From Gammaproteobacteria bacterium (GTDB lineage: Bacteria > Pseudomonadota > Gammaproteobacteria > Burkholderiales > Gallionellaceae): a stretch of 64,000 nt of DNA. Made by a program: the position numbers and the translations under genes. The notes beneath the pieces are model-generated. The model was not told the DNA's origin, did no database searches, and saw only the letters and a program-made list of their open reading frames with translations. This document shows positions 2,672 to 62,186 of this stretch, piece by piece (the first letter of the stretch is position 1; each line of letters opens with the position of its first letter). The stretch spans positions 1-64,000 of the forward strand of contig JAHJBC010000013.1 in NCBI GenBank assembly GCA_018813765.1, given 5' to 3'.

Positions 2672-2683
2672 TGTGTTCCTTTA

Positions 2684-2766
2684 GCTTGTGGCCTGTGGCT
2701 CGTAGCTCATAGCTAGTCGCTTCGCGAATCGGTTTTGCTAACGACTAGCGACTAACGTCTAACGAC
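2684..2766. repeat. Inverted heptamer-array element, fliP-fliQ gap
   Basis: The left arm is five tandem 7-mers (GCTTGTG, GCCTGTG, GCTCGTA, GCTCATA, GCTAGTC; 2684-2718). A 20-nt loop follows, then a right arm of four 7-mers (TAACGAC, TAGCGAC, TAACGTC, TAACGAC; 2739-2766). The arms are complementary only in part (GCTAGTCG against CGACTAGC). The element occupies the gap from 4 bp after the fliP stop to 12 bp before the fliQ start. Related elements sit at 55455-55526 and 61021-61225. Confidence 0.75.
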
Positions 2767-2770
2767 TGTC

Positions 2771-3673
2771 TCAAGTATAAAAACTCTGCACCAGTGAACC
2801 CACCAGCAGGTTCCACCCGTCCGCCAGTACGAACAGCATGATCTTGAATGGCAGCGAGATGACGGCGGGCGACAACATCATCATACCCATCGACATCAGC
2901 ACGCTGGCGACCACCATGTCGATGATGAGGAAGGGGATGAACACCACGAAGCCGATCTGGAACGCGGTCTTCAGTTCGCTGATGACATAGGCGGGTACCA
3001 GTACCTTGAGCGGCACATCCTCTGCGCTTTCCAGGGGAGGGCTTTCCGAGATGCGCACGAACAGGGCAAGGTCGGCCTCACGTGTCTGGCGCAGCATGAA
3101 GGTCTTGAGCGGGGCGCTGCCTTTTTCGTAGGCCTGCTCCAGCGAGATCTTGTTCTGGCTGTAGGGCAGGTAGGCGTCGGTGTACATCTTGTCGAACACC
3201 GGTGCCATGACGAAAAAGGTGAGGAACAGCGCCAGACCGACCAGCACCTGGTTGGGCGGCGAGGAGGGCGTGCCGATGGCGGAACGCAGCAGGCCGAGCA
3301 CGATGATGATGCGCGTGAAGCCCGTCATCATCAGCAGGATGGCGGGCAGGAAGGTCAGCGAAGAGATCAGGATCAGCGTCTGCAGGCTCAGCGTGTAGGT
3401 CTGGCCACCGCCGGGAGTGGGTGTGCTGTTCAGCGCCAGTACGCCGGTCTCGGCGGCTTGGGCGGGAGCGGCGAGAGCGAACAAGGCCAGCATCATCATC
3501 CACGGATTGATGCGGATAGAGTTGAATGATGCGAGCTGTTCCCCCCCTTTAGAAAAGGGGGGCAGGGGGGATTTGAAGGACGGATGACCTGCATCGGTAC
3601 TTAAATCCCCCTCAGTCCCCCTTTTCCAAAGGGGGAAGCTGGCACAGAATATCTTGTATGCGGTGTCACGCAT
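2771..3673 (-). CDS. fliP: Flagellar export gate protein FliP with an N-terminal extension
   Basis: FliP forms the core ring of the flagellar export gate. From about residue 59 the protein is a standard FliP: a signal peptide ([15 protein letters not shown]), a periplasmic portion, and transmembrane segments including [20 protein letters not shown]. The open frame begins with an ATG at 3673 that overlaps the fliO stop (ATGCGTGA) and has a GGAG ribosome binding site inside fliO. This adds 58 residues before the signal peptide, mostly encoded by a palindromic repeat (3539-3637). An internal ATG cluster at 3499 would give the usual 242-residue protein but has no Shine-Dalgarno site. Which start is used is uncertain; function is not. 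Confidence 0.93.
3539..3637. repeat. Palindromic C-tract repeat inserted in the 5' end of fliP
   Basis: Two inverted arms bracket about 25 bp of unrelated sequence. One arm runs 3539-3577 (C7-TTT, then AAAAGGGGGG and CAGGGGGG-ATTT). The other is 3603-3637 (AAATCCCCCTCAGT, CCCCCTTTTCC, AAAGGGGG-AA). Each arm is itself an imperfect hairpin. Repeats of this look are familiar in intergenic DNA of many proteobacteria, from general knowledge. Here it is read through in frame by fliP without a stop codon. Confidence 0.8.
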
Positions 3674-54206: not shown

Positions 54207-55454
54207 ATGTTCTCTCGCAAAAACACCATCGCCGTCACCGACCCCGAACTCTGGAGCGCCATCCAGAACGAGACCCGCCGTCAGGAAGATCATATCGAAC
54301 TGATCGCCTCGGAAAACTACACCAGTCCGGCGGTGATGGAGGCGCAAGGCAGCCAGCTCACCAACAAGTACGCCGAAGGCTATCCCGGCAAACGCTACTA
54401 CGGCGGCTGCGAGTATGTGGACATCGCCGAACAATTGGCCATCGACCGCGCCAAGGCGCTGTTCGGTGCCGAGTACGCCAACGTGCAACCGCACTCCGGC
54501 TCGCAGGCCAACCAGGCCGTGTACGCCTCGGTACTCAAGCCCGGCGACACCATCCTCGGCATGAGTCTGGCGCACGGCGGCCACCTCACCCACGGCGCAT
54601 CGGTGAACATCAGCGGCAAGCTGTACAACGCCATCACCTACGGCCTCAATGAAAAAGAAGAGATCGATTACGACGCGGTGCAGAAGCTGGCCAACGAGCA
54701 CAAGCCCAAGATGATCGTGGCGGGCGCCTCGGCCTACGCGCTGGTCATCGACTGGAAGCGTTTCCGCGCCATCGCCGACAGCGTCGGCGCTTACCTGTTC
54801 GTGGACATGGCGCACTACGCCGGTCTGGTCGCGGCGGGTTGGTACCCCAGCCCGGTCGGCATCGCCGACTTCGTCACCACCACCACGCACAAGACTCTGC
54901 GCGGACCGCGCGGCGGCCTGATCATGGCCAAGGCAGAGCACGAGAAGGCACTGAACTCGGCGATCTTCCCGTCGCTACAGGGCGGTCCGCTGATGCACGT
55001 CATCGCCGCCAAGGCGGTGGCGTTCAAGGAAGCGGCGAGCAAGGAATTCAAGGCCTACCAGAAGCAGGTCATCGACAATGCCCGCGTGATGGCAAAAGTG
55101 CTGACCGAGCGCGGCGTGCGCATCGTCTCCGGACGCACCGACAGCCACGTGTTCCTGGTCGATCTGCGCGCCAAGAAGCTCACCGGCAAAGACGCCGAAG
55201 CGGCACTGGGCAAAGCGCATATCACCGTCAACAAGAACGCCATCCCCAACGATCCCGAGAAGCCTTTCGTCACCTCCGGCATCCGCATCGGCTCTCCCGC
55301 CATGACCACCCGCGGCTTCAAGGAACTGGAAGCCGAGAAACTGGCACACCTGATCGCCGACGTGCTGGATGCACCGACCGACGAGGCCGTTATCGCGCGC
55401 GTGGCGGGCGAGGTGAAGAAGCTGACTTCGGCGTTCCCGGTGTATGGAAATTAA
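54207..55454 (+). CDS. glyA: Serine hydroxymethyltransferase
   Basis: GlyA converts serine and tetrahydrofolate to glycine and methylene-THF. The 415-residue PLP enzyme has the lysine motif [14 protein letters not shown], the N-terminal [20 protein letters not shown] and the phosphate-binding [15 protein letters not shown]. Length is normal. The ATG at 54207 starts [15 protein letters not shown]; an in-frame ATG at 54021 would add 62 unlikely residues over rpoH DNA. The heptamer element begins immediately after its stop. Confidence 0.98.
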
Positions 55455-55526
55455 GCTTGTAGCCTGTAGCTGGTAGCTTGTAGCCAACCCGGCTTTGCTA
55501 CCAGCTACCAGCTACCAACTACCAGC
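55455..55526. repeat. Inverted heptamer-array element, glyA-nrdR gap
   Basis: The left arm has four 7-mers (GCTTGTA, GCCTGTA, GCTGGTA, GCTTGTA; 55455-55482). A 16-nt loop follows, then a right arm of four 7-mers (TACCAGC, TACCAGC, TACCAAC, TACCAGC; 55499-55526). The arms pair over nearly 28 bp. It starts right after the glyA stop and ends 5 bp before the nrdR ATG, so there is no normal ribosome binding site for nrdR. Confidence 0.85.
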
Positions 55527-55531
55527 TCATC

Positions 55532-60131: not shown

Positions 60132-60580
60132 AAGAGATCCAACAGAATCTGAACGGCGCTGGCCTGCGCATCGGCATCGTACAGAGCCGTTTCAATGAAA
60201 CGGTATGCGAAGGCCTGCGTGAAGCCTGCCGCACGCAACTGGTGCAGAGCGGCGTTGCCGAGAACGACATCACCCTGGCCACCGTGCCGGGCGCGCTGGA
60301 GATACCGCTGGTATTGCAGGTCATGGCGCAGAGCCGCAAGTTCGACGCGCTCATCGCGCTGGGCGCCGTGATCCGCGGCGACACCTACCATTTCGAGGTC
60401 GTCTCCAACGAATCCGCGCGCTGCGTGGGCGAGGTGCAACTGCACAGCGGCGTTCCCATCGCCAACGCCATCCTCACCACCGACACCGACGAGCAGGCCG
60501 AGGTGCGCATGAGCGTGAAGGGCAAGGAAGCCGCGCTGGTCGCCATCGAGATGGTGCATCTGCTCAAAGCCATCGCATGA
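60128..60580 (+). CDS. ribH: Lumazine synthase
   Basis: RibH makes 6,7-dimethyl-8-ribityllumazine, the substrate of RibE. The 150-residue protein has [20 protein letters not shown] near the N-terminus, the substrate loop [15 protein letters not shown], and the catalytic His region [15 protein letters not shown]. It forms large shells in most bacteria. It overlaps ribBX (ATGA) and nusB (ATGA). Confidence 0.98.
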
Positions 60581-61032
60581 ACGACGTGCAGAAAAGCAAC
60601 CCGGCCAAAAGCCAGCGCCACCGCGCACGCGAACTCGCGATGCAGGGCATCTACGAATGGCGCCTCTCCGGCAAGAGCGCAGCGCTGATCGAAAAAGCGA
60701 CACGCGAGGAAAAGAGCCTGGGGCGCTACGACACCGAGTTCTTCAGTCAGCTGCTGCACGGCGCGATTGCGCAGCATGAGGCACTGGGCGAGCAGATCGC
60801 CCCGCTACTGGATCGCAAGCTGGAAGAACTGAGTCCGGTCGAATACTCCGTGCTGGTACTCGGCGCCTTCGAACTGGCGCAACATCCGGAGATTCCCTAC
60901 CGCGTGGTCATCAACGAAGCGGTCGAACTGGCCAAGACCTTCGGCGGCAGCGACGGCCACAAATTCGTCAACGGCGTGCTGGACAAGCTGGCGGCGCAGG
61001 TGCGGGCGACAGAAATAGTTGCTAGTCGCTAG
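60577..61032 (+). CDS. nusB: Transcription antitermination factor NusB
   Basis: NusB with NusE binds boxA RNA for rRNA antitermination. The 151-residue helical protein has [20 protein letters not shown] and [20 protein letters not shown], both diagnostic. The last residues ASR and the stop codon are encoded by the first heptamers of the repeat element (from 61021), so the element has altered the native C-terminus slightly. The ribH-nusB-thiL-pgpA order is usual. Confidence 0.97.
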
Positions 61033-61225
61033 TCTTTAGTCGTTAGTTGGGGCTGTCGCTACGCGGGTGTTTGTTATTACTGGATTCCGGCCTGATGGAA
61101 CTACTAGCCATTCGACTTAGCTGGCAAAATGCGCCAGCTAAGTCGCTGGTTATGCGCCGGAATGTCGGGCTAAAGGTTTTTGGTTTTGACTAACGTCTAA
61201 CGACTAGCGACTAGCGACTAACGAC
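61021..61225. repeat. Inverted heptamer-array element with nested hairpins, nusB-thiL gap
   Basis: The left arm has four 7-mers (GCTAGTC, GCTAGTC, TTTAGTC, GTTAGTT; 61021-61048). The right arm has five (TAACGTC, TAACGAC, TAGCGAC, TAGCGAC, TAACGAC; 61191-61225). The interior holds ATTCCGGC (61084-61091) paired with GCCGGAAT (61156-61163), and inside that a perfect 13-bp stem, CGACTTAGCTGGC (61113-61125) with GCCAGCTAAGTCG (61133-61145). The thiL ATG follows 7 bp after the last unit. The region 61033-61232 has no other gene. Confidence 0.85.
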
Positions 61226-61232
61226 TGTCCTC

Positions 61233-62186
61233 ATGTCCGAATTCGATCTCATCAAGCGCTACTTCACCCGTCCCACCCCTGGTGCAGTTCTCGGCGTGGG
61301 CGACGATGCCGCGCTGCTGCGGGTGGGCGACGGCATGGAACTGGCCGTTTCCACCGACATGCTGGTGAGCGGCACGCATTTCCTGCCCGATGCCGATCCC
61401 TTCCTGTTGGGCTACAAGACGCTGGCGGTGAACCTGTCGGACATGGCGGCGATGGGCGCACTGCCGTGCTGGGTGACGCTGGCCATCGCATTACCGTCGG
61501 CAGACGAGGATTGGCTGCGGCATTTCAGCGACGGCTTCTTCGCGCTGGCCGACCAGTTCGGCATCGAACTGATAGGCGGCGATACCACGCGCGGTCCGCT
61601 CAACCTGAGTGTCACCATCATGGGCGAGGTGCCGCGGGGCAAGGCGCTGCGCCGCGACGGCGCACAGGCCGGCGACGACATCTGGGTGTCGGGGACGCTG
61701 GGCGACGCGGCATTGGGCCTGGCGCACCTGCAAGGCAAGACCGTCTTGCCCGACGACATCCGCGAGCGTTGCCTGGCTGCCTTGCAGCAGCCGCAGCCGC
61801 GGATCGCGCTGGGCATGGCCTTGCGCGGGATCGCCCACAGCGCGATCGATATCTCCGACGGCTTGCTGGCCGACCTCGGCCACATCCTCGAACGCTCCCA
61901 TGTTGGCGCCGAGATCAAATACGACAAATTGCCGGTGTCCACTTCATTCGGCGGCAAGGATATGGACGCCTTGCGGCAGCGCTGTGCGCTCTCCGGTGGC
62001 GACGAATACGAGCTGTGCTTCACCGCGGCGGACACGCAACGGGACGAGATCGAGAGCGCAGCATACCGCCTGCAACTGCCGTTGACCCGCATCGGCAAGA
62101 TCGTGTCCGGCAGCGGCTGCAAAGTGCGCGCGGCAGACGGCAGCGTGATGCAGATCGAAAGGAGCGGATATGACCACTTCGCGTAA
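61233..62186 (+). CDS. thiL: Thiamine-monophosphate kinase
   Basis: ThiL phosphorylates thiamine phosphate to the active diphosphate. The 317-residue protein starts MSEFDLIKRYFTRPTPGAVL and has the ATP-site GVGDDAALL, Mg-binding AVNLSDMAAMGA and GGDTTRGPLNLSVTIMG. Length matches. Its last 17 bp overlap the start of pgpA. The heptamer element lies just upstream and leaves no clear Shine-Dalgarno site. Confidence 0.97.
   Translation: MSEFDLIKRYFTRPTPGAVLGVGDDAALLRVGDGMELAVSTDMLVSGTHFLPDADPFLLGYKTLAVNLSDMAAMGALPCWVTLAIALPSADEDWLRHFSDGFFALADQFGIELIGGDTTRGPLNLSVTIMGEVPRGKALRRDGAQAGDDIWVSGTLGDAALGLAHLQGKTVLPDDIRERCLAALQQPQPRIALGMALRGIAHSAIDISDGLLADLGHILERSHVGAEIKYDKLPVSTSFGGKDMDALRQRCALSGGDEYELCFTAADTQRDEIESAAYRLQLPLTRIGKIVSGSGCKVRAADGSVMQIERSGYDHFA

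Follow-up and report, generated by a model that had tools for sequence, protein, structure and literature searches.

The gap between nusB and thiL in this Gallionellaceae contig holds an element, C, made up of three repeats, one inside another: an inverted heptamer array, a CTGGATTCCGG/CCGGAATG (CTGGATTCCGG..CCGGAAT) palindrome in the loop of that array and, within the palindrome at C^T, a 60-nt core. The core belongs to a set of small bulged hairpins that insert precisely at Y^T without target duplication, and layered insertion explains the pile-up of heptamer, CCGG and hairpin repeats in one gap. By analogy with known single-strand systems, the core is taken, with moderate confidence, to be a REP-like mobile hairpin whose mover acts in trans and is probably an HUH enzyme.

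Layers in the nusB–thiL gap

The window (the whole stretch of DNA analysed, 64,000 nt) has the following features at C:

60577..61032, + strand: nusB, its C-terminus rewritten by the heptamer arm (same-genus comparison)
61016..61047, + strand: left heptamer arm, TAGTTGC TAGTCGC TAGTCTT TAGTCGT TAGT, supplying the last nusB codons, ASR-stop
61057..61092, + strand: left half of the palindrome that hosts the core (the middle layer), CGCTACGCGGG-TGTTTGTTATTA-CTGGATTCCGGCC, with its own separate matches in the genome
61093..61152, + strand: core, a mobile hairpin micro-element of 60 nt at GGCC^TGCG (covariance model match 87.8 bits; boundary from empty sites)
61093..61104, + strand: 5' tail of the core, 12 nt, TGATGGAACTAC (from alignments of copies)
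61105..61152, + strand: bulged hairpin of the core, TAGCCA-TT-CGACT...AGTCG-C-TGGTTA, its 3' end being the exact 3' boundary of the core
61153..61168, + strand: right half of that palindrome, TGCGCCGGAATGTCGG, abutting the 3' end of the core
61188..61226, + strand: right heptamer arm, GA CTAACGT CTAACGA CTAGCGA CTAGCGA CTAACGA CT
61233..62186, + strand: thiL

A sequence-only reading of this DNA had held that the heptamers begin within the last codons of nusB and supply its ASR-stop, which can be read directly at 61021-61032, where GCT AGT CGC TAG is at once the nusB end and part of the left arm. It had also placed their end 7 bp before thiL, and they do adjoin that gene, the distance being 6 bases (right arm end at 61226, ATG at 61233) and the coordinates otherwise right to a base or so. 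Across 32 nt the two arms (61016-61047 and 61189-61220) are 91% complementary, and the nested inverted repeats described between them, with a perfect inner stem of 13 bp, are confirmed at 61084-61163, where an 8-nt inverted repeat, ATTCCGGC / GCCGGAAT (61084-61091 / 61156-61163), surrounds the 13-nt stem of the core (61113-61125 / 61133-61145).

A search of the own genome with the whole of C returned partial matches in three groups, namely the heptamer arms, the CGCTACGCGG...CTGGATTCCGGCC stretch and the core. That C grew by stacking is indicated by two partial counterparts: an ungapped empty paralogue of the middle layer, lacking the core (L021 665-716; 88% over 52 nt, with 37 junction-spanning matches), and the nusB–thiL gap of a congener (G075, locus L258), which shares the heptamer arms and the EIVASR-stop and has neither middle layer nor core.

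The gap was surveyed, with sorting by eye, in 30 loci (the own genome, 28 readable congeners and one locus without nusB), and measures 15-29 bp in 16 of the 28 readable congeners. Among the other 12, heptamer arrays occupy L236, L258 and, in eroded form, L247; L240, L244, L246, L252 and L263 have inverted arrays of the CACAGAG type and L245 one of the CAGATTA type; L242 has a core-like hairpin, and L250 and L260 have other insertions. Inverted-array repeats have landed in this gap repeatedly. The CACAGAG- and CAGATTA-like arrays of the sister species have the same architecture of two facing arms as the heptamer elements, built from unrelated units.

Folded as RNA, 220 nt of C reach -101.2 kcal/mol, against -65.1 +/- 4.5 in shuffles (z -7.95; 0 of 200 as good), and the hairpin stack may affect the nusB–thiL mRNA. 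The very stable fold, the real covariation described below and the operon-like gene run would suit a conserved RNA element of the nusB–thiL transcript, be it an attenuator or an mRNA stabiliser; this explanation is nevertheless very improbable, as most congener gaps are as short as stated and the others carry unrelated elements, copies occur in unrelated places, no intrinsic terminator was found at C, and an Rfam scan of the interval 60900-61350 gave no family at the gathering score (two matches lay far below threshold).

Two further heptamer elements, A and B, lie in the window:

2682..2767, no strand assigned: element A, a chimeric heptamer array, left arm of a TAGCnnG-like type, right arm of the CTAACGA type, no core
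55454..55527, no strand assigned: element B, a heptamer-array hairpin of the TAGCnnG type, no core

The earlier observations that A and B lack the core (the window has one core only) and that all three elements occupy gaps between co-directional genes both hold: among the ORFs of at least 100 aa, A is flanked by two on the minus strand (1609-2397 and 2771-3673), presumably FliR- and FliP-like, and B by two on the plus strand, which we take to be glyA- and nrdR-like, while nusB and thiL are both on the plus strand. The accompanying proposal, in which C would be the complete version of a single element and A and B its shortened versions, can draw on the heptamer arms common to all three, and is scarcely credible now that core and arms are seen to occur independently: elsewhere the core is found inside genes or repeats of other kinds, heptamer pairs occur without a core, and G075 has the arms alone at the very same locus.

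Four consecutive CTA-heptamers are matched 7 times in the window, against 0 expected in shuffles, and the pattern CTAN4CTAN4CTAN4CTA 58 times genome-wide, against 3 for its backwards control. Facing arm pairs were read 10 times in the 30 loci fetched from heptamer matches (two being alternative readings of one place), and those of own-genome loci have short loops without a core. There are subtypes, that of B having TAGCnnG arms and a mostly CCGGTTTTG-like loop and that of C having TAGTCGn arms and a loop such as GTCGCTACGCGG. Element A mixes them, with a left arm of B's type and a right arm of C's type, and is a poor hairpin for that reason (longest exact arms 8 nt), which suggests that heptamer elements have recombined with or replaced one another rather than being kept by selection as perfect hairpins.

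The core hairpin and its insertion sites

Searched for separately, core and arms both have other copies in the genome and in relatives. The covariance model finds 28 core copies in the own genome (E<=1e-4), the core in 103 of 120 Gallionellaceae genomes, and the core in 14 of 200 genomes sampled across the order (8 of the 194 that belong to other families). Per family genome the matches range from 0 to 45 or more, counts near 45 being lower bounds, as 45 candidates were scored per genome. At least 118 matching stretches were found; among the 80 listed, the named records are mostly Gallionella, Sideroxydans, Ferrigenium or Nitrosomonadales MAGs, with a few labelled Sulfuricella, Sulfuricaulis, Betaproteobacteria, Proteobacteria or Gammaproteobacteria. 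Phage and plasmid collections gave no core match. Two viral contigs (IMG/VR; L304, L305) hold the left half of the element and are possibly prophage or host DNA.

Own-genome copies align as TGATGGAACTAC followed by TAGCCATTCGACT...AGTCGCTGGTTA, and the general form is a 5' tail, TGATGRAACWAC, plus a bulged hairpin, mostly 54-60 nt in all, in which a foot helix is followed by an unpaired spacer, a second helix and a variable terminal stem. When the 151 copies of the junction set (those flanked by 45 nt on either side and differing in their junctions, out of 162 distinct copies in 153 loci) are cut by string pattern, 89 measure 60 nt, 37 measure 54, 19 measure 59, two measure 57 and four have other lengths, so that 128 of 151 are a multiple of three as cut; from comparison with empty sites, the copies scored at 59 nt appear mostly to start one base earlier. 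The four bases 5' of the hairpin are mostly CTAC or CAAC, and never GTAG or CGTC, in the aligned rows. Outside the family, the foot helix TAGCCA/TGGTTA is replaced, with compensation, by CAAGCA/TGCTTG, CAGCCA/TGGCTG or TAAGC/GCTTA, the tail being kept; a second type of tail, ending in TGCA, also exists (L172, L210, L229 and L282 are among its carriers).

The hairpin structure is under selection: changes on both sides with pairing kept occur at 15 of the 18 stem pairs across 101 distinct copies, with 165 covariation cells against 46 in shuffles and a score of 0.267 against 0.095 (0 of 500 shuffles as high; slid controls at most 0.058). These copies are the distinct rows among 104 matches at 76 chosen loci, with the 54-nt class under-represented, and were aligned by fitting to the covariance model, hence leaning towards the structure; ten independently aligned own-genome copies give the same kind of result (5 pairs, 0.143 against 0.039), and one drawn pair (columns 28-55) is unformed in 96 of the 101 rows. 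Covariation of this kind fits single-stranded DNA and RNA alike, DNA being favoured by the scattered insertion sites.

At the 151 junctions the dinucleotide is CT in 105, TT in 33 and another in 13, i.e., Y^T in 138, whereas CT and TT make up 5.9% and 6.5% of the background. Removal of the element restores an ungapped counterpart, matched over at least 10 bases on each side among the loci of this study, in 97 of 151 cases, C included; controls with mispaired flanks gave 12, 11 and 17 of 151, those keeping 3, 6 or 10 element bases on one side 0-5, and those removing 3 or 6 flank bases 7 and 13. These empty sites are mostly paralogous rather than orthologous. The sequence-only reading had proposed empty sites, target duplications, a fold and covariation as checks on a mobile or structured element, a description that for the core has proved apt: empty sites, a stable fold, covarying pairs, other core copies and arms elsewhere are all there (the reverse of what it had named as counter-evidence), and only the target duplication is absent, the empty sites showing at most one ambiguous nucleotide, a T.

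The targets, sorted into rough string classes, are CCCTCTCCC..GGGAGAGGG palindromes (48 of 151 copies), CATTCCGG palindromes (20), CCCTGAGCC^TGTCGAAGGG (8), TGTCCTC/CTCTGTG arrays (8), the element's own kind (2) and unclassified sequence (65). A stem of at least 5 bp starts at the junction in 34 of 151 copies, compared with 52 of the 1075 YT positions on the same strand (p 1.7e-11), an excess that shrinks when the comparison is with the opposite strand of these flanks (22.5% versus 9.2% of 1097 YT positions) and is not seen for stems of at least 7 (2/151 versus 17/1075); a loop position (stem at least 6) is found in 24/151 versus 79/1075 (p 0.0014; opposite strand 10.2%). Joined sites also fold more strongly than places drawn at random from these loci (median z -1.00 versus -0.16), the latter being an imperfect control, as they are probably mostly coding. 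In L042 and L052 one copy has entered another exactly at the foot of the latter's hairpin, AC^TAGCCA. At L052 4972-5227 several core hairpins, some without a tail, lie clustered in tandem and nested arrangement, which looks like repeated insertion at one spot.

Copies also lie within genes. In 39 of the 151 copies a stop-free frame runs for at least 60 codons on each side (these are reading frames and need not be genes, and some run on the strand opposite to that of the element), and in 8 of 16 such frames, picked by eye and run against Pfam, family domains lie on both sides of, or across, an in-frame insert: MetG, PrmC, LysA, TgpA, MutL, PolA, RecG and an IleRS-like synthetase. Outside these 8, a weak domain starts at the insertion in L059, and L074 matches a two-stretch family, listed with its upstream stretch; in the other 6 of the 16 frames a domain is present on one side only or not at all. 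In the own genome, the RecG-like gene (L009, G000:C13 near 73811) has the 60-nt element, in frame, in the stretch joining its DEAD domain to its helicase C-terminal domain, and the alignment of MetG with solved MetRS sequences (6wq6) breaks at residues 320-360, the place of the element and its host repeat. One frame of the element reads DGTTSHSTKLANNASQVAG. The in-frame carriers are mostly metagenome-assembled sequences, and housekeeping genes such as MetG, PolA, MutL, RecG and the IleRS-like one would appear, from their predicted frames, to carry in-frame pieces of a mobile hairpin.

Candidate movers

As we read it, the core would move as single-stranded DNA: a trans-acting nuclease-ligase would recognise the folded hairpin and cut at Y^T beside it, and the same enzyme would join the ends and insert the hairpin at another exposed Y^T, in the mode proposed for TnpA-REP and IS200/IS605-type HUH enzymes, the copies, once inserted, being probably passive. 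The bulge, the Y^T junctions and the lack of duplication seem to fit such a mechanism, which is weakened by the absence of a 5' GTAG, by the absence of a Y1 class splitting high- from zero-copy genomes and by a weak strand bias. Lagging-strand transposition is expected to leave a strand bias with respect to replication; here 55 of 94 copies agree with it (p 0.12), and 48 of 78 in the test away from the terminus (p 0.054), with the terminus assumed opposite dnaA and three genome lengths rounded.

The covariance model was applied to a set of 105 loci retrieved for Y1/RAYT-like genes, covering 100 of them (some being the same place twice; L299-L303 lay outside that scan, and L302, the same place as L282, was searched separately), and matched the core in 7 of the 100. 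In three it lies within 1 kb of the gene: less than 100 bp upstream in L172 (1304-1364), directly downstream in L210 (2044-2107) and a few hundred bp upstream in L229 (2130-2177); L282/L302 is a fourth such case, with the core (1051-1111 in L282) about 1.0 kb from the RAYT-like gene. With the string pattern alone, none of the Y1 loci showed a core in that range. All four are variants with the TGCA-ending tail inside GTAG REPs, which resemble those flanking the RAYT-like gene; we read them as insertions into REPs, and they could also be a RAYT route carrying the core.

It is to these variants in REPs adjoining RAYT-like genes that one would look for a core that is a passenger, copied mainly with its host repeats (GTAG REPs moved by RAYT, CCCTC..GAGGG and CATTCCGG palindromes) and making few jumps of its own. 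Three variant copies of G180 in the same kind of GTAG REP point the same way, as do several copies in host repeats of two genomes outside the family, G245 (L271-L279) and G205 (L264-L270), whose long shared flanks imply that they seem to have multiplied as whole composites. As a general account, however, passenger status is decidedly improbable, since the targets are many unrelated repeats as well as genes and 97 of the 151 junctions have empty counterparts.

One RAYT class (C) was considered as the mover by presence and absence and rejected, as it does not separate high- from zero-copy genomes (present in 17 of 21 genomes with at least 40 copies, also in 11 of 17 with none; hand count). In G027 (46 matches, 85% complete) neither search found a Y1 gene. 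An autonomous longer element with the same ends was sought as well, and the 21 half-matches, many of them nested, truncated or at a locus end, gave by eye no pair framing a gene; nor did a recurrent gene near the copies emerge, the largest cluster comprising 5 loci (an ABC-ATPase-like ORF) versus 6 far from copies, with none transposase-like among those listed. Elsewhere in the own genome, L031/L034 (G000:C12:496809-497441) has two tandem Y1 transposase-like genes, the first cut by a stop, preceded by short repeated GGGGTCAG- and GGGTCAG-like stretches.

With no Y1 gene consistently linked to the core, and none found in the high-copy G027, the same mobile hairpin might have a non-HUH mover, e.g., a tyrosine recombinase acting on folded single strands in the manner of integron integrase on attC, or some other protein. 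The succession of foot helix, spacer, second helix and terminal stem resembles attC, whose sites have RYYYAAC/GTTRRRY boxes and are cut at G^TT. The core, on the other hand, is cut 3' after GGTTA at the hairpin foot and 5' 12 nt before the hairpin, i.e., not as at the G^TT of the attC R-box, and its insertion sites are scattered Y^T positions, so that such a mover is unlikely; an integron attC as such was rejected on the core boundary, GGTTA^T.

A bolder proposal, which is put forward tentatively and is on balance doubtful, is a new class of single-strand mobile hairpin that is not a REP, has an unrecognised enzyme as its mover and prefers the feet or loops of other hairpins, itself and GTAG REPs included. 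If true, its size, for the most part a multiple of three, and its open frames would let the hairpin enter essential proteins, and it would at once parasitise other hairpins and supply proteins time and again with in-frame insertions. Whichever enzyme is responsible, about 150 mapped insertions are now at hand, with exact boundaries, a Y^T rule with a hairpin-foot excess, empty counterparts and 0 to at least 45 matches per species; such mapped insertions, target rule and copy-number range put the mover within reach of gene-content comparison and of tests with oligonucleotides.

Comparison with known systems

Heptamer arrays with the unit TAACTGA occur in Beggiatoaceae and cyanobacteria, and are intergenic, tandem and often just before a start codon (PMC4679880); there they are nearly all direct repeats, unlike the present heptamers, which form two degenerate arms facing each other round a short loop. 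For the core, a MITE of a DDE transposon was rejected, as empty sites are restored without duplication beyond one ambiguous nucleotide, and so was an IS200/IS605 derivative, as there is one hairpin per element, no longer element with these ends was seen by eye and no recurrent transposase-like ORF stood among the neighbours listed.

Rickettsia palindromic elements are described (PMC10969869) as palindromic, lying in frame in unrelated housekeeping proteins and having a conserved peptide. By that description the core is alike in being palindromic and inserted in frame in protein genes, and differs in its length (54-60 nt versus about 150), its clade and its defined boundaries and Y^T target. 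REPINs are miniature non-autonomous palindromic elements (PMC3116915), inverted REP pairs associated with RAYT genes; the core is likewise a miniature palindromic element within genomes, and unlike them a single hairpin.

There is a close likeness to REPs (GTAG/CGTC), with which the core shares a small bulged palindrome, many copies and a conserved hairpin, falling within the definition of a short imperfect palindrome. TnpA-REP of E. coli, for which the bulge is essential, cleaves REPs in single-stranded form at a CT next to the hairpin (PMC8266576). REPs nested in other palindromes, or situated within genes for repair proteins and tRNA synthetases, have been reported (PMC3733652), as have TnpA-Y1 subclasses whose REPs are atypical or missing (PMC6006769); in view of the latter two reports, no new principle is claimed here. 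The core differs in having a 12-nt 5' tail instead of a GTAG/CGTC tag at the hairpin foot, and in its exact insertion sites, empty counterparts and self-nesting; as for REPtrons, its copies beside RAYT genes are variants nested in a GTAG REP. It is on account of the missing tag, with an ambiguous link to RAYT-like genes (a copy nearby in 3 of 100 loci), that the core is not filed as a REP. In the open-licence PMC literature, no article was found pairing Gallionella with “repetitive extragenic palindromic”, nor were the strings CTAGCCATTCGACT and CACAGAGACACAGAG; as far as these searches of it go, the family, its tail-plus-hairpin anatomy, its exact insertion rule with empty sites and its self-nesting are new.
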